Positions 4,755-21,462 of a DNA stretch of 64,000 bases are shown here, one piece after another. Location: contig NZ_JAAXPO010000006.1 in NCBI RefSeq assembly GCF_012396485.1, forward strand, positions 62,001 through 126,000, written 5' to 3'. The notes beneath the pieces were generated by a model. The model ran no database searches. It saw only the letters and a program-made list of their open reading frames with translations, and was not told the origin of the DNA. This DNA is from Leuconostoc holzapfelii (GTDB lineage: Bacteria > Bacillota > Bacilli > Lactobacillales > Lactobacillaceae). Numbering within the stretch: the first letter of the stretch is position 1; the number at the start of each line of letters is the position of its first letter. The position numbers and the translations under genes were made by a program.

Positions 4755-5807
4755 TTAATAAAACATCACCCGAACGGCTTCAGGCACTGAAAAGTCTTTT
4801 TGTGTTTCGGTTAGCAGACCCGTTTTTTCGTCTCGCGCAAATACAGTCACATTATCCGTATTTTGGTTAGCGACGACGACATAACGTCCCGATGGCGCAA
4901 TATTAAAGTCACGCGGGAACTCACCTTGCGTTGGCACTGATTGGATTTGTGTCAGACGGCTACCATCATCACTTACCGCAAATACTGCCAGCGAGTTATG
5001 TCCACGATTGGAGACATAAACAAATCGGCCATCGTCAGAGACACGAATGGCAGCCGACCCGTTATGGGCTGTCCACTCATTTGGAATGGTTGGGTAGGTC
5101 TTTTCCAAGACCATCTCCGCGGTCGCTGCGTCATACTTCACAACAGAAATTAAAGAGGACAATTCTCCCAAAACGTAGACATACTCCGGATGCGCTGGGT
5201 TAAAACGTAAATGTCTTGGACCATAGCCGGTGCCAGTCTGATAGGTGCCAGCTAAGGTTAACGCCCCTGCATCTGATAAATCAAAGACTGTAACTAAATC
5301 TGAACCCAAATCCACAATGTCTACACGACCATCTGGGGTCAAATTCGCAAAGTGGACATGGGCTTTATTTTGTTCTGGGCGGGGGCCTTGACCCTGCGCC
5401 AAATACTGATCTGTCTGTGTGACGGTCCCGTCTGCATGGATTTTAAAAACAGTTAATGTTGACAGATGATAATTAGCCGCCAGCAGTAATTGGCGCTTCT
5501 CGTCAATGGCCAAATAGGCCTCTGAGGCATCTGGTGTCAACCAAGTTTGAATCTGCTTTGGTGCATCAGGATGCTTAAAATCATACACCGCAAACCCGCC
5601 TTCACCACCAGTTGGTCCCTGACCATCCTGGCGTGCCACAGCATATAGAAAACCAGCCTGACTTAAGACAGTGTAGGTCGGTGAACCAATTGGAAACAAT
5701 AATTTGGCATCATGTAATTGCCCCTTCTCCAAATCAAGTGAGGCCGTATAGACCCCTTCTGAGCCACGTCGCGTATAGGTGCCAAACATTACCTGTTGCT
5801 CTGCCAT
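4755..5807 (-). CDS. pgl: Lactonase family beta-propeller protein, probable 6-phosphogluconolactonase
   Basis: This 350-residue protein is of the YkgB/Pgl seven-bladed propeller type, with repeated blades such as YVLGELSSLISVVKYD, FVYVSNRGHNSLAVF and YVVVANQNTDNVTVF. It would hydrolyse 6-phosphogluconolactone in the phosphoketolase route of heterofermenters; other lactones are possible. An upstream in-frame ATG (5849) would lie almost at the transcript start given by the promoter at 5859-5887, and it lacks a ribosome binding site. The ATG at 5807 follows GGGGT, so I chose it. The single gene is flanked by its own promoter and terminator, separate from the TPP operon before it. Confidence 0.85.
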   Translation of the reverse strand: MAEQQVMFGTYTRRGSEGVYTASLDLEKGQLHDAKLLFPIGSPTYTVLSQAGFLYAVARQDGQGPTGGEGGFAVYDFKHPDAPKQIQTWLTPDASEAYLAIDEKRQLLLAANYHLSTLTVFKIHADGTVTQTDQYLAQGQGPRPEQNKAHVHFANLTPDGRVDIVDLGSDLVTVFDLSDAGALTLAGTYQTGTGYGPRHLRFNPAHPEYVYVLGELSSLISVVKYDAATAEMVLEKTYPTIPNEWTAHNGSAAIRVSDDGRFVYVSNRGHNSLAVFAVSDDGSRLTQIQSVPTQGEFPRDFNIAPSGRYVVVANQNTDNVTVFARDEKTGLLTETQKDFSVPEAVRVMFY

Positions 5808-5858
5808 TTTAATACCCCATCCATTTTCATTTTCTGTAACCGTTTTCATTACTTGTTT

Positions 5859-5887
5859 ATTATAGATTCAGCTTGGCTATTTGTCAA
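5859..5887 (-). promoter_or_regulatory. Consensus promoter of the lactonase gene
   Basis: On the minus strand TTGACA (5887-5882), a 17-base spacer and TATAAT (5864-5859) form a perfect sigma-A promoter. The expected start site is near 5852, which fixes the lactonase start at the internal ATG 5807. Confidence 0.88.
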
Positions 5888-5899
5888 AATAAATTTGTC

Positions 5900-6667
5900 T
5901 TAATTCATCGTCAAACCACCATCAACAAACAGACATTGCCCAGTAATATTATCCGCTAACGCCGATGCCAAAAACACTGCTGCACCAGCAATATCAGCTG
6001 GTTTCGTCAACCGACCGGTGGGCGTTTGCGCAATAATTGCTTCGCGAACATCTCGATGCGTTGTGCGACTGGCATCTGTCGGGTATGTCAGTCCTGGTGC
6101 AATGGCATTGACTCGAATACCATAAGCCCCCAATTCCACGGCAGCAGAACGCGTCCAGCCCAAAACAGCCGATTTTGCAGCAATATAATCATGGTATGGG
6201 ATCACCGGATTTTGGGTCAAATTAGTCGTAATATTGATCACACGGCCATATTGTTGTCGTTTAAAGGCAGGCAAAAGTGCTTGCGTCAGATAATGACTCG
6301 CTTTCAAACTACCGTCAATTTGCGCTTGAAAATCTGCCCAGGTTGTGTCGCCAAAAAGTCGTCGATGTTTTGGGTCAAATACAAAAGGCGCGAAGGCATT
6401 ATTCACCAAAATATCAATCGCACCAAAATTATTTAGCACCTCAGTTATCATTGCTTGTATGGCAGCGTCACTTCGGACATCACACGGTATTGCCACGGCT
6501 TGCCCACCAGATGCAGTAATGTCAGCCACGATGGCGTTTGCTTTTTCGTGATTTTTTAAGTAATTCACAATGACAATTGCACCTTGCTGCGCCAGACCTT
6601 TTGCAATAGCCGCGCCAATACCACGGCTCGCGCCAGTCACAAGTGCAACTTTATGATCTAATAACAT
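5900..6667 (-). CDS. Short-chain dehydrogenase/reductase, last gene of the TPP-controlled operon
   Basis: This 255-residue classical SDR carries the nucleotide motif TGASRGIGAAIA (about residues 11-22), NNAF in place of NNAG, the active-site DYIAAK (YxxxK) and a C-terminal GQCLFVDGG. The residue where catalytic Ser usually sits, 13 before the Tyr, is Thr. It resembles FabG-type 3-oxoacyl-ACP reductases, but the NNAF and Thr variants and its operon argue against a housekeeping role in fatty acid synthesis. It starts 3 bases after the LuxC-like gene. I infer that it interconverts the aldehyde made by LuxC and the alcohol. Confidence 0.85.
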   Translation of the reverse strand: MLLDHKVALVTGASRGIGAAIAKGLAQQGAIVIVNYLKNHEKANAIVADITASGGQAVAIPCDVRSDAAIQAMITEVLNNFGAIDILVNNAFAPFVFDPKHRRLFGDTTWADFQAQIDGSLKASHYLTQALLPAFKRQQYGRVINITTNLTQNPVIPYHDYIAAKSAVLGWTRSAAVELGAYGIRVNAIAPGLTYPTDASRTTHRDVREAIIAQTPTGRLTKPADIAGAAVFLASALADNITGQCLFVDGGLTMN

Positions 6668-6670
6668 AGC

Positions 6671-8140
6671 TTATTCCACATCCTCATCAAAGCGTTCGAC
6701 ATATTGATCCAAATTAGCTTCAATATCCACGACACGTAATAAATCCAATAAGTTAAAACCGCCATCATGATGCCACGCCGCCGAAACATGATTCATCTCG
6801 CCAAGCGCACATAACCTGGTAATCCCAACTTCGCCTAATTGACGCGCAAGGGTCATTAACGCTTGCGGGGCAACGGCCAGGCCTGCCGTTTGTAGATAAG
6901 GCTTAAATGGTGCAATGTAATTTGGCACATCAGCCAAACGATCAACGGCATAGACGTGCACCGTGCGATTAAGGGGACTTGCTTGAAAGTCTGGCGTGTC
7001 ATGATAGACGACAGTCCAAGTTAAATCCTCACGACTTGAAAACATTTGCGTCGTTTGGTTGTTGATCATTTCAGATAATGCATTTTGGCGTAGTTTATTA
7101 ATTGCTAATTTTTCCGCTGGTTGTAAAGTTGCTTGTCGATATTGATGTTGATAATTATCCAAAGCAGTAGCCATGACACTTGCAAATTCACCTGGTGATA
7201 GCTGACCACCGCGTTCGATATAAACAGATTGTGGTGCTAAACAGGCCTGTTGATCATAAACACCTAAATCGCTCACTAATTTTTCCGCTGTTTGGCGATA
7301 ATAGTCGGCCGTTAAAGCAATGCGACCCACCAATGCCACGCCAATCTTGTACCCATAACGAATCAATTGTTTAGTCGCCGGTACAAAGTCTCTTACTGCC
7401 GTCACGGTTTGCTCACTCCCAGACACAATCACTGTTTCAGCGTGTTGAATGGCTGTTTTCGTTAGCGTGACTTCTTGACTTGACCAGGGCAAGATGGCTA
7501 AAACATCAGCGAGCCTTGGGTCGACATCAGCCAAGGTTTTTACGAACAAAACCGGCATTAATGGTTCTGCAAACGACGTTTTACCAATGATGGCGGATTT
7601 CACCAGCAACCCCATAATCAGCGTCCAAATTTGAACCCCTGGCACATTGCCAGAAAAAATTTGGAAAAGTAAATCTGGCCCATAAAATTTGGAAAATCCT
7701 CCTGATAGGTTTGGTTGAAACTCGTCCATGGCCATGCCAGTATTTGCCAATTCAGAATTCACAAATCGTAAAAGCTCTTTTTCACGAAATAAACGCATGT
7801 ATTGCTTCAATTCGAGTGTCGTTTGCGTGGCGTCGTACCCTGTCATTAATGGCAAATATTTTTCCGCTACCTGTCGATAATGGTAATGTGGATCTGTCCA
7901 TTTCTCGGCAGCTAAACCAATCGTTCTCACAATTTCTCGAACACTCAATTGGTTGAGGTACGTCGCTCGCTTGCTTTTAAGTGCTTCAGCCAATGCCACG
8001 ATTTCTTGCGGTGTGGCATCTGGATAGCGCAATTGAATGGCCCCGTCCGGCGTTTGCAAAACCTTTTCTGTGTATTTTTCAAACGCAAATGTCTTTGGCG
8101 CCACAAAAACATCAATCACGCTACCATTTTTCTGACTCAT
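6671..8140 (-). CDS. LuxC-like acyl-CoA/acyl-protein reductase
   Basis: The 489-residue protein matches the LuxC acyl reductase family in length and layout: an N-terminal part followed by an aldehyde-dehydrogenase-like Rossmann domain. The motif DQQACLAPQ carries the expected catalytic cysteine, which forms an acyl-enzyme reduced by NADPH to the aldehyde. The reading frame is open further upstream, but the ATG at 8140 follows GAGAGGT and begins right after the LuxE stop at 8143, so I chose it. No luxAB luciferase is present, so bioluminescence is excluded. The acyl substrate is unknown; TPP control suggests a thiamine-related acid. Confidence 0.88.
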   Translation of the reverse strand: MSQKNGSVIDVFVAPKTFAFEKYTEKVLQTPDGAIQLRYPDATPQEIVALAEALKSKRATYLNQLSVREIVRTIGLAAEKWTDPHYHYRQVAEKYLPLMTGYDATQTTLELKQYMRLFREKELLRFVNSELANTGMAMDEFQPNLSGGFSKFYGPDLLFQIFSGNVPGVQIWTLIMGLLVKSAIIGKTSFAEPLMPVLFVKTLADVDPRLADVLAILPWSSQEVTLTKTAIQHAETVIVSGSEQTVTAVRDFVPATKQLIRYGYKIGVALVGRIALTADYYRQTAEKLVSDLGVYDQQACLAPQSVYIERGGQLSPGEFASVMATALDNYQHQYRQATLQPAEKLAINKLRQNALSEMINNQTTQMFSSREDLTWTVVYHDTPDFQASPLNRTVHVYAVDRLADVPNYIAPFKPYLQTAGLAVAPQALMTLARQLGEVGITRLCALGEMNHVSAAWHHDGGFNLLDLLRVVDIEANLDQYVERFDEDVE

Positions 8141-8142
8141 GC

Positions 8143-9268
8143 TCACGACCTCTCGCCCAATGCTTGACTCTTCATTAGTTCGTCTACCGCAATCGAACAG
8201 CCGCGTGCCGCCGTGCCGCTCACACGACCAATCAATTGAAAGCCAACGTCGGTTTCTACGGCAAGATCCTCGGTTAAAATAGCCAAACACGTATCCCAGT
8301 TAGCTAAATCATAGTAAGCCAAGATTCCTGGCTCCCCTTTTGTCACCGGCTTCAAATCGGTGGCATCAAGAATCTGAATTCGGACCCATGCCGGCACAAC
8401 TTTATCAAAGGTGAACGGTTGCTCGTCATTGTCAAGCAGCAAATTGCCGTCATAACATTGCGAACTAATTTCTGTCATCCCAAACATGTTGATAATATGC
8501 GCGCGGGACGTTAAAAAATTCAGAAAGTTGCGTATACAATGTTGTCATACTGATTGTTCTGGCCTGACCTTTGAAACCACCGGTATCAAACACAATACTC
8601 CCCTCAGGCAAAGGGTAACGCTGATCTGAAGTGGCCAGTGCATCTAGCAAATGAACATACGAAAATGAAGCGCCAATAAGCAGAACTGGCTGATTCATCG
8701 TGCGCGCGTGATCTAGTGCACCTTTTAGCGCTGCCATCGCAATTGCGCCGTCTCTAAATAACACCTGGCTGTCTGGCGTGCCAAATGTAGCAATCGCTGT
8801 ATTGATATAACGAGACAAAGAAGAATGTGGATTCGCCACTTGATCTGGAAAAAGTGATAAAATCGTGATTTTTTGCCGCTTTCCCATGACATATTGCTTA
8901 AAACCTTGTTTCATAGCCGTTTCCCATACATCTAACCGGCTTAAATAATGTTGACTTTTGTGCACAGGGTCGGTCGTCCCACTCGAATAAAAAATATCAG
9001 CAGACTGTGAAATATCCTCAGTTGATAGTGTCATCTGCTTAAATGCTTGAATTGGCATACGCGGCACGTCTTGCCAGTGCTTTGTTGTCATTGGCGTTCG
9101 TCGTTGTTGTTGAGCTAACAGCCGATAGGGCTGATTTTTAGCAAATTGATAGGCAAAAATATCACAGGCAAGTTGATTAAATGCCACTTCCAATTCCTCT
9201 TGTGAAGATTGATCCGATTTGATAAATGAGATAATCCGGTCGGGTAAGCTATTTTTTGGCTGGGTCAT
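8143..9268 (-). pseudogene. LuxE-like acyl-protein synthetase, frameshifted
   Basis: The N-terminal frame (9268 to about 8510) holds the LuxE/acyl-protein synthetase body, including SSGTTDP and DTGGFKGQ. The family motif FGMTEISSQ and the C-terminal part continue in the +1 frame to 8143. Removing one base from the A6 run 8513-8518, or adding one CG to the CG repeat near 8499-8505, restores about 375 residues, the usual length. The second repair gives a better motif spacing (NVPRAHIINMFGMTE). LuxE enzymes activate a carboxylic acid with ATP and pass it to LuxC. The start overlaps the permease gene by 20 bases, so translation is coupled. The cause could be mutation, phase variation or a sequencing error. 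Confidence 0.85.
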
Positions 9269-10544
9269 TTGTTTGTTGCACCTTCCGAAGATATTTTGGG
9301 ATGAGATTTAATCCAATATGCAAACTGATTGCGGCAATAGCCCCAATTAAAATGGTATTTGAGAGCAATTGGCCTAACACACCGTGCCACCCTGAGGCGT
9401 ATGCTGGTAATGCAATGGCCAGGACAATTGATAGACCACTGATGATTTGATTCGCCTGAGTATTATCCGCCTGGTTTAACATTTTTAACCCTGTCATGAG
9501 TAATGTTGTCGCCGCTGGTAAGAATATCCCACCGATAACCGGACTAGGTGTCAATGCTAATAATGCGCCAATCTTTGGTACAAATCCAAAAATGATAAAC
9601 GCGGTGCCGGCAAACAACACCGGCATACGTGACGTGTTTTGCGACAAATTCAAAACCCCTACATTTTGCGCATAAGCAGTTGTTGGAAAACCACCAAACA
9701 AACTTGAAAACATTGACCCAACAGCTTCCCCTAATAAGCCATTTTGAACGCGCTTAGGAGCAATCGTTTCGCCCATGGCATCACCCGCCGCTTCATACAC
9801 ACCAACCGCTTCCACCACCGCAACCAAATAGGCAACAAAAAAAGCACTGAAGACTACCCAATTAAAGCGCAACTGGCCATAAGGGAGTAGATGTGGCAAA
9901 CCAAACCATGGCTTGGTGGCAAGAAGTGAAAAATTCACCTGACCCAAAAAAATCGCCAAGCCGTCACCAATGACCAACGCAATTAAGAACGCAAAACGCT
10001 TCAAATGGCCACGAGCAAATAATGATAAACCAAGCACAATGCCCGTTGTGACAATGGCCAACAGCAAGGTCTGTGGCGCAGCAAAACCTTTATCCCCTGG
10101 ATAACCACCCAAAAATTCCGATAATGTGAAGCTTGATAGTGACACGCCGACCAAAAATATCAGGGTACCGATAATCGTTGGGGTCAAAAATTTGAGAATT
10201 TTAGACATCAGACCTGTAATCGACAATAGAAATACAAGCAGCGCACTGATTAAAATCGAGCCGCTCGCAGCTGCCAGTTGGCCACTTTTCCCCGCGCCAA
10301 TCATTAAGGCATCAAAGGCCGCTGAAGGCCCTTGAATAATCGGTAATCGCACAAGCTTTGTGACTTGTGTTAACGTCACAATGCCAGAGACGATAAAAAT
10401 CGTATTCACTAAGTTAACAGACATATTCAAAGATAAGCCGGCCGCCGCGGCAACATAGATTGGATCTAACCAAACATTAGAGACGAAAACGTGTTGCAAC
10501 CCTGCTATGCCGTGCGATAGCAAGCGTTGTTTTTTTGAAAACAT
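9249..10544 (-). CDS. NCS2 (xanthine/uracil) family permease under tandem TPP riboswitches
   Basis: The 431-residue protein has the NCS2 layout of about 14 helices: the QH motif in helix 1 (QHVFVSN), the helix-8 motif EAVGVYEAAGDA and the signature GGFPTTAYAQNVG. NCS2 proteins import nucleobases by proton symport. The ATG follows AAGGAAAG directly behind the second TPP riboswitch and its terminator, so expression should fall when thiamine diphosphate is plentiful. I infer a thiamine-precursor substrate such as a hydroxymethylpyrimidine or related pyrimidine, rather than xanthine or uracil. It is the first gene of the operon with LuxE-, LuxC- and SDR-like proteins. Confidence 0.9.
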   Translation of the reverse strand: MFSKKQRLLSHGIAGLQHVFVSNVWLDPIYVAAAAGLSLNMSVNLVNTIFIVSGIVTLTQVTKLVRLPIIQGPSAAFDALMIGAGKSGQLAAASGSILISALLVFLLSITGLMSKILKFLTPTIIGTLIFLVGVSLSSFTLSEFLGGYPGDKGFAAPQTLLLAIVTTGIVLGLSLFARGHLKRFAFLIALVIGDGLAIFLGQVNFSLLATKPWFGLPHLLPYGQLRFNWVVFSAFFVAYLVAVVEAVGVYEAAGDAMGETIAPKRVQNGLLGEAVGSMFSSLFGGFPTTAYAQNVGVLNLSQNTSRMPVLFAGTAFIIFGFVPKIGALLALTPSPVIGGIFLPAATTLLMTGLKMLNQADNTQANQIISGLSIVLAIALPAYASGWHGVLGQLLSNTILIGAIAAISLHIGLNLIPKYLRKVQQTNDPAKK

Positions 10545-10561
10545 ATAACTTTCCTTCCATT

Positions 10562-10595
10562 AAAAAAAGTCCTTTTGCGCGCAAAAGGACTTTTT
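10562..10595 (-). terminator. Terminator of the second (gene-proximal) TPP riboswitch
   Basis: AAGTCCTTTTGC and GCAAAAGGACTT form a long perfect hairpin followed on the minus strand by seven Ts. It sits between aptamer 2 and the permease ribosome binding site and is the likely expression platform. Confidence 0.88.
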
Positions 10596-10616
10596 TGGTA
10601 TCACTACCAAAATAAC

Positions 10617-10690
10617 TCACTTTCCTACGCTAGTGTTAACTAGTTCAGGTTCAGAGGGTGCTTCTCAGCCATACTTGGCGCCCCTAGCGA
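10617..10690 (-). ncRNA. TPP riboswitch, second of a tandem pair
   Basis: On the minus strand the conserved THI-box parts appear in order: GGGGCGCC, GGCTGAGA, CCCTCTGAACCTGA, TAGTTAACACTAGCGTAGGAA. The aptamer is complete and is followed by a terminator before the NCS2 permease gene, so TPP binding should cause premature termination. Confidence 0.95.
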
Positions 10691-10756
10691 AACAACAATT
10701 TAAACGACTTCCCCGTTACATCATCTAACCCCCCTAATTTTGCACCAAAACAACCA

Positions 10757-10792
10757 AATAAAAAGGTGCCTTTTCCGATGGAAAAAGCACCT
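10757..10792 (-). terminator. Terminator of the first (promoter-proximal) TPP riboswitch
   Basis: On the minus strand AGGTGC plus a T-rich arm pairs with GGAAAAG plus GCACCT (13 pairs, one G-U), followed by TTTTTATTT. It lies between the two aptamers, so each TPP sensor has its own expression platform. Confidence 0.85.
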
Positions 10793-10815
10793 AAAATCAG
10801 CATGATTTGTTTTAG

Positions 10816-10892
10816 CACCGCTTTCCTACGCTAGTATTAACTAGTTCAGGTTCAAAGGGTTCATCTCAGCCATTTTGGCGCCCCTAGCATGC
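10816..10892 (-). ncRNA. TPP riboswitch, first of a tandem pair
   Basis: On the minus strand: CTAGGGGCGCC, GGCTGAGA, CCCTTTGAACCTGA, TAGTTAATACTAGCGTAGGAA. It closely resembles the second copy at 10617-10690, suggesting duplication. Stretch 10545-10917 holds no gene, only the two aptamers, their terminators and the promoter. Confidence 0.95.
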
Positions 10893-10896
10893 TTAT

Positions 10897-10905
10897 AGTA
10901 TATCA
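10897..10905 (-). promoter_or_regulatory. Extended -10 promoter of the TPP-controlled operon
   Basis: On the minus strand TGATATACT forms an extended -10 element just upstream of the first TPP aptamer. The -35 position (10925-10920) reads TCGTTT, which is weak and overlaps the end of the glutathione peroxidase gene. Confidence 0.65.
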
Positions 10906-10917
10906 CAATTGTATTTT

Positions 10918-11397
10918 TTAAACGAGCATTTTTTCAATGTCAGGTATCATCGCTTCCGGTTTTGTGGCGGGCGAAAAACGTTTCACGACTTCTCCCTCGC
11001 GATTAACCAAAAACTTAGTAAAATTCCACTTGATACGTGTACCTAAGGCATTTTTTGCATGATCTTTAAGATAAATAAACAATGGGTCAGTTTGTTTACC
11101 GTTGACTGCAATTAATTGGTGCATTGGAAAGGTTACCCCGTACGTTAAGCGACACGCTGCTGCGGCGTCTTCTGCCGATGACAACTCCTGCTTAAATTGA
11201 TTCGACGGAAAACCCAGCACAATTAAGCCTTGCGCTTGATACGCCTGATAAATGGCTTCCAAGGCTTCAAATTGTGGTGCAAAGCCACACTTTGTCGCAG
11301 TATTAACAATCACCATCGGCCGCCCAGCATAATCACCCAGTGTATACTGCTGACCGTCTTCAGTCATTGCGTTAAATTGGTATACATTTTCTGCCAT
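10918..11397 (-). CDS. gpx: Glutathione peroxidase family protein (thiol peroxidase)
   Basis: From the chosen start the protein has 159 residues, the usual length for bacterial Gpx. Motifs are NTATKCGFAPQF (peroxidatic Cys), FPSNQF with the catalytic Gln region, and KWNFTKFLV with the Trp-Asn of the active site. It reduces hydrogen peroxide or lipid peroxides; without selenocysteine such enzymes usually take electrons from thioredoxin. The frame opens at 11418, but the GGAGGT ribosome binding site lies inside that extension, just before the ATG at 11397. It follows the dehydrogenase gene by 27 bases and is probably co-transcribed. Confidence 0.92.
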   Translation of the reverse strand: MAENVYQFNAMTEDGQQYTLGDYAGRPMVIVNTATKCGFAPQFEALEAIYQAYQAQGLIVLGFPSNQFKQELSSAEDAAAACRLTYGVTFPMHQLIAVNGKQTDPLFIYLKDHAKNALGTRIKWNFTKFLVNREGEVVKRFSPATKPEAMIPDIEKMLV

Positions 11398-11424
11398 GAG
11401 TACCTCCGCATCGGCCAAAATCGC

Positions 11425-12477
11425 CTAGGCTTCATCCTTTAAGTTCACCAAAATTTTGGCTTGTGATTTGTCCGATGTCAAGGATTCAAAGCCGTCTGTG
11501 ACAATATTATCCAGCGCTATCATATCCGTGATTATTGGCGCAACATCAATTTTACCTTGGCTGACCAAATCAACAGTCTGTTGGAATGTTTCTTTTGAAT
11601 AAGCAATCGTGGTTGTTAATTTAACCCCTGCATTCATTAATTGCATTGGGTCAAAACTAATTGGCTTGGCAAAAATCGACACGATCACCATGGTGCCGCG
11701 AGGGCGTGTAGCATCAATAGCTTGTTCAAAAGTTGGCTGTACGCCGGCAACTTCAAACGACACATCGGCGCCGCCAGGAATAATATCATGGATAGCCGCG
11801 ATCGTGTCGGCGACCTCACCTGAATTCACCACATCGGTTGCACCCATTTCTAACGCCTTCTTCAAGCGGACTTCAGACAGGTCCACGGCAACAATCTTTG
11901 TTGCGCCAGCGGCTTTGGCAGCTGCGGCAACCAACACACCGATTGGGCCGGCACCAAAAATGACAACCTTTTCGCCAAAGCGCAAGCCCCCTTCTTTCAC
12001 CGCCTGAACGGCAACTGCTGTTGGCTCAATGGTAGCCGCTAATTCAAGTGAGAAATCTTCAGGTAAGTGATACAAATTCTCTTCTGGTACATTGACTCGG
12101 GAAGTAAAACCACCATCCGTGCTCAAGCCAATAAAGCTATAACCATCATATACATCGACATCATCAGGTACTTGACCTTTTGTCACTGTGGGGTTCACGG
12201 AAACATGATCACCCACTTTAAAGCGGGTCACATCTGAACCCACGCTTTCAACCACACCGGAAAATTCATGTCCCATGGTTAATGGGGCTTGCCCACCAGT
12301 CAAATCATCCGGCTGCTCGACTGGAATAAATACAGGGCCTTCGAGATATTCATGCAAATCACTCCCACAAATACCTGCATAGGCGACCCGCACCACAACT
12401 TCATCAGACTTTAAAGGCTTCAATTCAACATCTTCAACACGTACATCCTTCACACCATGCCATACTGCTGCTTTCAT
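11425..12477 (-). CDS. Zinc-dependent medium-chain dehydrogenase, probable 2,3-butanediol dehydrogenase
   Basis: This 350-residue MDR-family protein has catalytic zinc ligands in GICGSDLHEY and MGHEFSGVVES, and the NAD-binding motif GAGPIGVLVAAAAKAAG. It most resembles (R,R)-butanediol dehydrogenases, which interconvert acetoin and 2,3-butanediol. The lobe that normally holds four structural-zinc cysteines reads NPTVTKGQVPDDVDVY and lacks them, so the structural zinc is absent. The start follows AAGGAG. Glutathione peroxidase follows after 27 bases. A sorbitol- or threonine-type dehydrogenase is an alternative, because substrate cannot be fixed from motifs alone. Confidence 0.82.
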   Translation of the reverse strand: MKAAVWHGVKDVRVEDVELKPLKSDEVVVRVAYAGICGSDLHEYLEGPVFIPVEQPDDLTGGQAPLTMGHEFSGVVESVGSDVTRFKVGDHVSVNPTVTKGQVPDDVDVYDGYSFIGLSTDGGFTSRVNVPEENLYHLPEDFSLELAATIEPTAVAVQAVKEGGLRFGEKVVIFGAGPIGVLVAAAAKAAGATKIVAVDLSEVRLKKALEMGATDVVNSGEVADTIAAIHDIIPGGADVSFEVAGVQPTFEQAIDATRPRGTMVIVSIFAKPISFDPMQLMNAGVKLTTTIAYSKETFQQTVDLVSQGKIDVAPIITDMIALDNIVTDGFESLTSDKSQAKILVNLKDEA

Positions 12478-21388: not shown

Positions 21389-21397
21389 GGTTGCAAT

Positions 21398-21436
21398 CTC
21401 CTAGTTTTTTTAAGCGGGATGGTTGATGAACCGCTA
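21398..21436 (-). ncRNA. preQ1-I riboswitch upstream of queT
   Basis: On the minus strand AGCGG pairs with CCGCT around the loop TTCATCAACCATC, followed by TAAAAAAACTAGGAG. This matches the preQ1 class I layout (stem P1, a 12-13-base loop, an A-rich tail ending in the ribosome binding site). Binding would hide the AGGAG and reduce translation. I did not verify the P2 pseudoknot pairing base by base. Confidence 0.82.
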
Positions 21437-21462
21437 AATAACAGCATAACACAGCCGCATTG

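Follow-up and report, generated by a model that had tools for sequence, protein, structure and literature searches.

The 64,000-nucleotide stretch of the Leuconostoc holzapfelii genome analyzed here (contig NZ_JAAXPO010000006.1, positions 62,001 to 126,000; hereafter the window) contains an operon under thiamine pyrophosphate (TPP) riboswitch control that encodes an NCS2-family permease, LuxE-like and LuxC-like enzymes and a short-chain dehydrogenase/reductase (SDR). The module to which it belongs spans several phyla, and of the 57 loci that were gathered by LuxC similarity and have upstream DNA, 56 are preceded by a TPP riboswitch. The best overall explanation, to which we give an even chance, is that the module is repressed by TPP and salvages a thiamine-derived acid, likeliest a pyrimidine, by reducing it to an alcohol precursor of the vitamin. 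The evidence is sequence-based: the riboswitches, the protein families, the conserved catalytic residues, the gene linkage and the gene sets of the hosts.

A TPP-controlled operon and its relatives

The operon lies on the minus strand and is preceded by two tandem TPP aptamers, at 10806..10895 (73.9 bits) and 10605..10695 (72.4 bits). Both match the full length of model RF00059 and exceed its gathering score of 54.3 bits, as expected from the original prediction, which had named two TPP riboswitches. An intrinsic terminator-like hairpin is found 3' of the upstream aptamer (10764..10792, minus strand) by folding and by a consensus scan; a second such hairpin, 3' of the downstream aptamer and just upstream of the NCS2 start (about 10562..10596, minus strand), is found by folding and sequence and is absent from the consensus scan list. 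Tandem riboswitches also stand ahead of the operons in Weissella hellenica, Fructobacillus and Niallia, and in three genomes from the genus of the window. The source genome assembly (1.76 Mb, 18 contigs) contains six TPP riboswitches.

Five open frames follow the aptamers: NCS2, luxE (in two frames, see below), luxC and the SDR gene. They are as tightly packed as predicted, with a 20-base overlap between NCS2 and luxE, a 2-base gap between luxE and luxC and a 3-base gap between luxC and the SDR gene. The permease (9249..10544, minus strand, 431 residues) belongs to PF00860 (4.3e-74; 250 bits against a cut-off of 27), scores under the NCBIfam pbuX and ncs2 cut-offs and is the proposed importer, with a substrate that we infer; homologs 52-67% identical are located in the operons of other genomes. 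The LuxC-like acyl reductase (6671..8140, minus strand, 489 residues) belongs to PF05893 (5.4e-99; 332.2 bits against a cut-off of 21), and its YDQQAC motif aligns with the cysteine region of the solved LuxC in PDB entry 7xc6, which upholds the earlier claim that the catalytic cysteine is retained. The SDR-family dehydrogenase (5900..6667, minus strand, 255 residues; PF13561, 1.1e-59), proposed to act on the aldehyde, is nearest to PRK08642 among NCBIfam models (282.3 bits, with the cut-off at 292). Thus, Pfam supports the NCS2, LuxC and SDR assignments of the earlier gene list, and its single luxE gene is replaced by two frames.

In the proposed pathway, low TPP would lead the tandem riboswitches to permit transcription; the permease would import a carboxylic acid that arises when thiamine is oxidised; LuxE would adenylate the acid with ATP and transfer the acyl group to its own cysteine; LuxC would receive the acyl group and reduce it to the aldehyde with NAD(P)H; and the SDR would carry out the final reduction, from aldehyde to alcohol. 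The most probable acid would be 4-amino-2-methylpyrimidine-5-carboxylate, yielding hydroxymethylpyrimidine (HMP), which ThiD would phosphorylate and ThiE couple to the thiazole. Each reaction is proposed from the protein families, the direction of the pathway is likewise a proposal, and the substrate is suggested by context. Alignments indicate that LuxE proteins of this family keep the SGTT and YGMTE motifs and a terminal cysteine, and that the LuxC proteins keep QQxC; ATP activation by LuxE and acyl reduction by LuxC are plausible on family grounds. Support for the third step comes from the SDR and from the zinc alcohol dehydrogenase encoded in the NC10 operon, in which no SDR was found.

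The 57 loci are the window together with L011-L024, L026-L041, L042-L044, L072-L086, L087-L093 and L097; L025, whose contig begins within luxC, was set aside. The riboswitches score over the Rfam gathering score at 45 loci and at 50.3-54.2 bits (E <= 5.6e-7) at eight, and the remaining three (L092, L093 and L097; 42.8-54.5 bits) were detected with a custom model built from 28 other riboswitches. For 13 of the 45, genome coordinates were placed into the loci by hand, and the same 13 were recovered by the custom model. The sole miss, L086, has no riboswitch within its 812 upstream bases, and no luxE was seen there. The loci are partly non-independent, as L087 and L088 share protein accessions, L019 and L091 are one species and near relatives are included. 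LuxC similarity was the criterion by which loci were chosen, so the choice does not account for the riboswitch linkage. As controls, four loci with distant LuxC proteins (22-28% identical) were taken from 13 such plasmid records (H48-H60), and none of the four has a TPP match at E 0.01.

Several clades also have thiamine genes as neighbors: some of the homologous loci adjoin thiM, thiD, thiE, thiW, thiG or thiO, with thiD immediately before luxE in five (L028-L031 and L076) and thiM-thiD-thiE directly downstream of the operon in two Bacillus genomes (L017 and L018). The original prediction had ascribed a thiamine role to the operon on account of its TPP control, a claim that would fail if related operons lay apart from TPP riboswitches and thiamine genes, and it has survived this comparison. 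The loci display both the TPP control and the thi linkage of a thiamine precursor salvage operon, and the link to thiamine is strong.

The enzymes stay linked while the transporter varies, being NCS2, ATP-binding cassette (ABC), ThiW or none linked. The arrangements include: NCS2-luxE-luxC-SDR in Bacillaceae, Bifidobacterium and lactic acid bacteria; ThiW-NCS2-luxE-luxC-SDR in Niallia, one of which (L012) has ThiW without NCS2; ThiW-luxE-luxC-ABC-SDR downstream of thiM-thiD-thiE in Neobacillus niacini (L027); (thiD)-luxE-luxC-ABC-SDR-(thiE) in Comamonadaceae, the family of the Ramlibacter-like genome G036, Azospirillum and a Priestia plasmid; luxE-luxC-SDR beside a divergent ECF-like component in Staphylococcus; luxE-luxC-SDR with no linked transporter in Pantoea; and Zn-ADH (zinc alcohol dehydrogenase)-luxE-luxC-ABC in NC10.

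Long-chain acids are the best-known substrates of the LuxC and LuxE families, and the module could reduce fatty acids or other acids and lie within the thiamine regulon without feeding thiamine synthesis. The only PDB sequence match, the LuxC-LuxE entry 7xc6, agrees with such a function, but the nearly invariant TPP control, the thi-gene neighbors and the small-molecule transporters that change from clade to clade argue against it. The proteins also fall far under the bioluminescence equivalogs (NF052251 and NF052244 were tested for LuxC/LuxE): the window LuxC scores 102.5 against a cut-off of 750, and the two window LuxE pieces (29.7 and 30.7) and one intact relative (84.2) are to be set against a cut-off of 550. 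The context makes a role with fatty acids unlikely, and we regard this alternative as improbable.

Scanning a single genome of each species yielded 31 loci, and LuxC is present in four of 19 genomes of the same genus, the source genome included. In the LuxC tree, the window clusters with Weissella hellenica, Fructobacillus and three genomes of its own genus (six rows, support 100/100), which suggests a lactic acid bacterium from this lineage. Plasmid searches with two queries returned 30 and 40 records, 12 of which were examined. Plasmids of L. plantarum (10,287 bases) and L. brevis (21,191 bases) carry TPP-NCS2-luxE-luxC-SDR with identical protein accessions; therefore these four genes may be enough where the host has thiM, thiD and thiE, as we take the hosts of these plasmids to have. 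The Priestia megaterium plasmid operon (L092:5922-11758) has the ABC arrangement, and its LuxC shares 57% identity with the LuxC of a genome from the family of G036, which suggests transfer between phyla. No match to the Pantoea operon was found by blastn in E. coli genomes.

Host gene sets and the choice of acid

The original prediction proposed tabulating the riboswitches against host thiamine genes and treated the pyrimidine and thiazole acids as equal candidates. All 34 hosts in the tabulation have thiD over the cut-off and thiE (E <= 5e-31; 24 over cut-off), the genes that would be needed to use HMP. A strong thiG (E < 1e-90) is present in 31 of the 34 and thiC in 17; 14 of the 17 that lack thiC have a strong thiG, and no host has thiC without thiG. 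Hosts missing exactly one of the two genes therefore number 14 for thiC and zero for thiG. The source genome is one of the 14, with thiG, thiD, thiE and thiM present and no thiC found. Matches to thiM occur in 29 of the 34 hosts (E <= 1.5e-43), only 15 of them over the curated cut-off.

The ABC-type hosts outside Bacillota provide a second line of evidence. These 20 genomes comprise the 16 good LuxC carriers in the family of G036 (150 genomes; a further weak and partial match, G153, was dropped before counting), G037-G039 and the NC10 genome G043. A strong thiM is present in one of the 20 and thiamine pyrophosphokinase (TPK) in none, and TPK is found in all 29 remaining hosts. In six of the 16 carriers the ThiM model matches weakly and only in part (<=28 bits), and these matches are excluded from the thiM count; several of these hosts are metagenome-assembled genomes by title, so that single absences are weak evidence and the overall pattern less so. 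The scarcity of thiM and the absence of TPK argue that the product in these hosts is neither a thiazole alcohol nor free thiamine. In addition, the binding protein of the ABC-type operons is NMT1/THI5-like, and its profile matches THI5 (1.7e-12) and the formylaminopyrimidine-binding chain 3ix1 (1.3e-7) in a profile search against the PDB.

The gene sets bear directly on the thiazole alternative, in which 4-methylthiazole-5-acetate would be imported, reduced to hydroxyethylthiazole and phosphorylated by ThiM. Every NCS2-type host searched has a thiM match, and ThiW lies within or next to the operon in several genomes (L011, L012, L019, L027, L042-L044 and L091), two of which, L042 and L043, have a second ThiM-like kinase. 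Most hosts, however, have a strong thiG and need no thiazole, and the known route could not use the product in ABC-type hosts from outside Bacillota. We consider the thiazole acid rather unlikely as the substrate, although the clades could differ in the acid that they use.

Thiamine acetic acid is a known type of thiamine oxidation product, and the enzymes might instead reduce it back to thiamine, thus repairing the intact vitamin. TPK, which 29 of the 34 tabulated hosts have, could then convert the product to TPP. In the 20 ABC-type hosts outside Bacillota, where no TPK was found, this enzyme could not turn free thiamine into TPP, and the neighboring thiD, thiE and thiM indicate precursors rather than the finished vitamin; we regard repair as improbable.

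Several observations weigh against the pyrimidine acid. Half of the 34 hosts keep thiC and would have less need for HMP salvage. Loss of thiC was considered as a driver and rejected, since this loss is not enriched among LuxC carriers in the family of G036 (thiC is present in 11 of 16 LuxC carriers versus 89 of 150 genomes overall, 86 over cut-off). Neobacillus niacini is of the ABC type within Bacillota and has both thiM and TPK. The binding-protein profile matches the chains 3qsl (1.9e-20) and 4nmy (1.6e-16), for which no ligand is stated, better than THI5, and the NMT1/THI5-like family also includes sulfonate and taurine binders. ThiW, described as thiazole-specific in the relevant text of PMC5627462, accompanies the module in Niallia (four loci), N. 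niacini and three genomes of the same genus, two of which have the second ThiM-like kinase mentioned above.

On balance, it is very likely that some thiamine-precursor acid is the substrate, and the pyrimidine acid, which we would put at roughly one chance in two, is the likeliest. Of the original prediction, the reduction of a thiamine-derived acid to an alcohol precursor is retained and the equality of the two acids is not, as the host genes favor the pyrimidine. Going by the title of Neal and Pearson (1964) as referenced in PMC7780320, rats excrete the pyrimidine carboxylate in urine as a metabolite of thiamine.

In the three genomes of the same genus, a second ThiW-family gene follows the SDR gene (L042:8993-10332, L043:6749-8087 and L044:6714-7241). 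The ThiM-like kinase follows it in L042 and L043, and the unit in L042 has its own TPP riboswitch. This gene may point to a thiazole substrate or may belong to a separate thiazole unit.

The apparently interrupted luxE of L. holzapfelii

The earlier reading of luxE as one gene does not hold in this assembly, where a frameshift divides it into two frames that overlap out of frame and match separate parts of PF04443. The amino-terminal piece (8465..9268, minus strand, 267 residues), whose frame stops early, covers profile positions 29-264 and contains an SSGTT motif; the carboxy-terminal piece (8143..8487, minus strand, 114 residues) covers positions 304-388. Both score over the family cut-off. 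In an alignment with 47 relatives, the break falls just ahead of the conserved M(Y/F)GMTE motif, so that MFGMTE and the cysteine of the terminal GCS are parted from the amino-terminal piece. The intact relatives are single continuous frames of 355-471 residues, counted from the first start codon, that end with GCS, and luxE is unbroken at 370 residues in three genomes of the same genus.

With its frameshifted luxE, the operon of this genome is probably non-functional as assembled; if the split is real and not an artefact of assembly, the pathway is probably off. The window could thus hold a decaying remnant without function, a reading that we find fairly probable and that is compatible with any reading for the intact relatives. 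Of the 24 NCS2-type rows compared, none departs from otherwise invariant columns as often as the window does in LuxE (6 of 72) and LuxC (7 of 87). However, the NCS2, LuxC and SDR frames are open and conserved (4 changes in 129 such columns for NCS2 and none in 56 for the SDR), both riboswitches are full-length, and a single frameshift in a draft genome may be a sequencing or assembly error. The pattern of divergence points to decay that is early at best, or to a divergent lineage combined with a sequencing error.

A copy on a Pseudomonas silvicola plasmid (L093:5991-8269), in which luxE and luxC are each in two separate open pieces, also looks decayed; its upstream TPP riboswitch is still detected.

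Comparison with known systems and significance

The closest enzymatic parallel is the LuxC-LuxE reductase of luminous bacteria (7xc6), with which the module shares both families, their expected ATP activation and acyl reduction, and aligned cysteine regions. It differs in its TPP control, its importer and SDR genes and its scores far under the bioluminescence cut-offs, and Pfam detects no luciferase or luxD among the genes of the window operon. In logic, the module resembles ThiXYZ-YlmB-TenA, which, in the sections of PMC5627462 that describe it, is a TPP-controlled system that imports formylaminopyrimidine from base-degraded thiamine and converts it to HMP. The ABC-type relatives have an NMT1/THI5-like binding protein as well, but the module would reduce an acid, whereas ThiXYZ-YlmB-TenA deformylates and hydrolyses. 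Neither TenA nor YlmB was found among the eight frames searched with Pfam (window 4758-12477), a search that covered the window and not the relatives. ThiW-ThiM thiazole salvage uses the same riboswitch class and adjoins the module in some relatives, but takes up the alcohol directly, without reductases. The window permease is of the same family by sequence as the nucleobase transporters PbuX, UraA and SLC23, but it is TPP-regulated and under the PbuX/NCS2 NCBIfam cut-offs.

In open-licence PMC literature, to which the search was confined (subscription papers lay outside its scope), none of the titles and abstracts listed, which for one search were 15 of 376 papers, concerns LuxE or LuxC in thiamine salvage or describes a system of this layout; the novelty of the layout is provisional. 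The coastal B1 vitamers listed in the relevant part of PMC10881298 are HMP, AmMP, FAMP, HET and cHET, and the pyrimidine carboxylate is not among them. More broadly, the module may represent a widespread, partly plasmid-borne B1 salvage route in which LuxE, LuxC and a dehydrogenase turn 4-amino-2-methylpyrimidine-5-carboxylate into HMP; such acids would be hidden B1 vitamers, and a sister clade may use a thiazole acid. We hold this wider proposal with slightly less than even confidence. If it is true, the acids that form when thiamine breaks down are vitamers that can be recycled, a source of HMP may have been overlooked in bacteria scored as auxotrophs for it, LuxE and LuxC gain a vitamin role outside light production, and the module becomes a source of ATP-dependent reductases for heteroaromatic acids.

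Elsewhere in the source genome (L099:1851-4079; G000:C12), a TPP riboswitch at C12:175150-175256 precedes genes for nucleoside deoxyribosyltransferase-like, CMP 5-hydroxymethylase-like (2.9e-108 to 5jnh) and methyltransferase proteins. For bacimethrin, a thiamine antimetabolite, the pertinent text of PMC5627462 describes five gene types; three are found here, in a genome without thiC. Neither a thiaminase I nor a kinase was seen among the next listed frames, for which no dedicated search was made. Within the window, a PreQ1 riboswitch (41.3 bits) is located at 21395-21440 on the minus strand.

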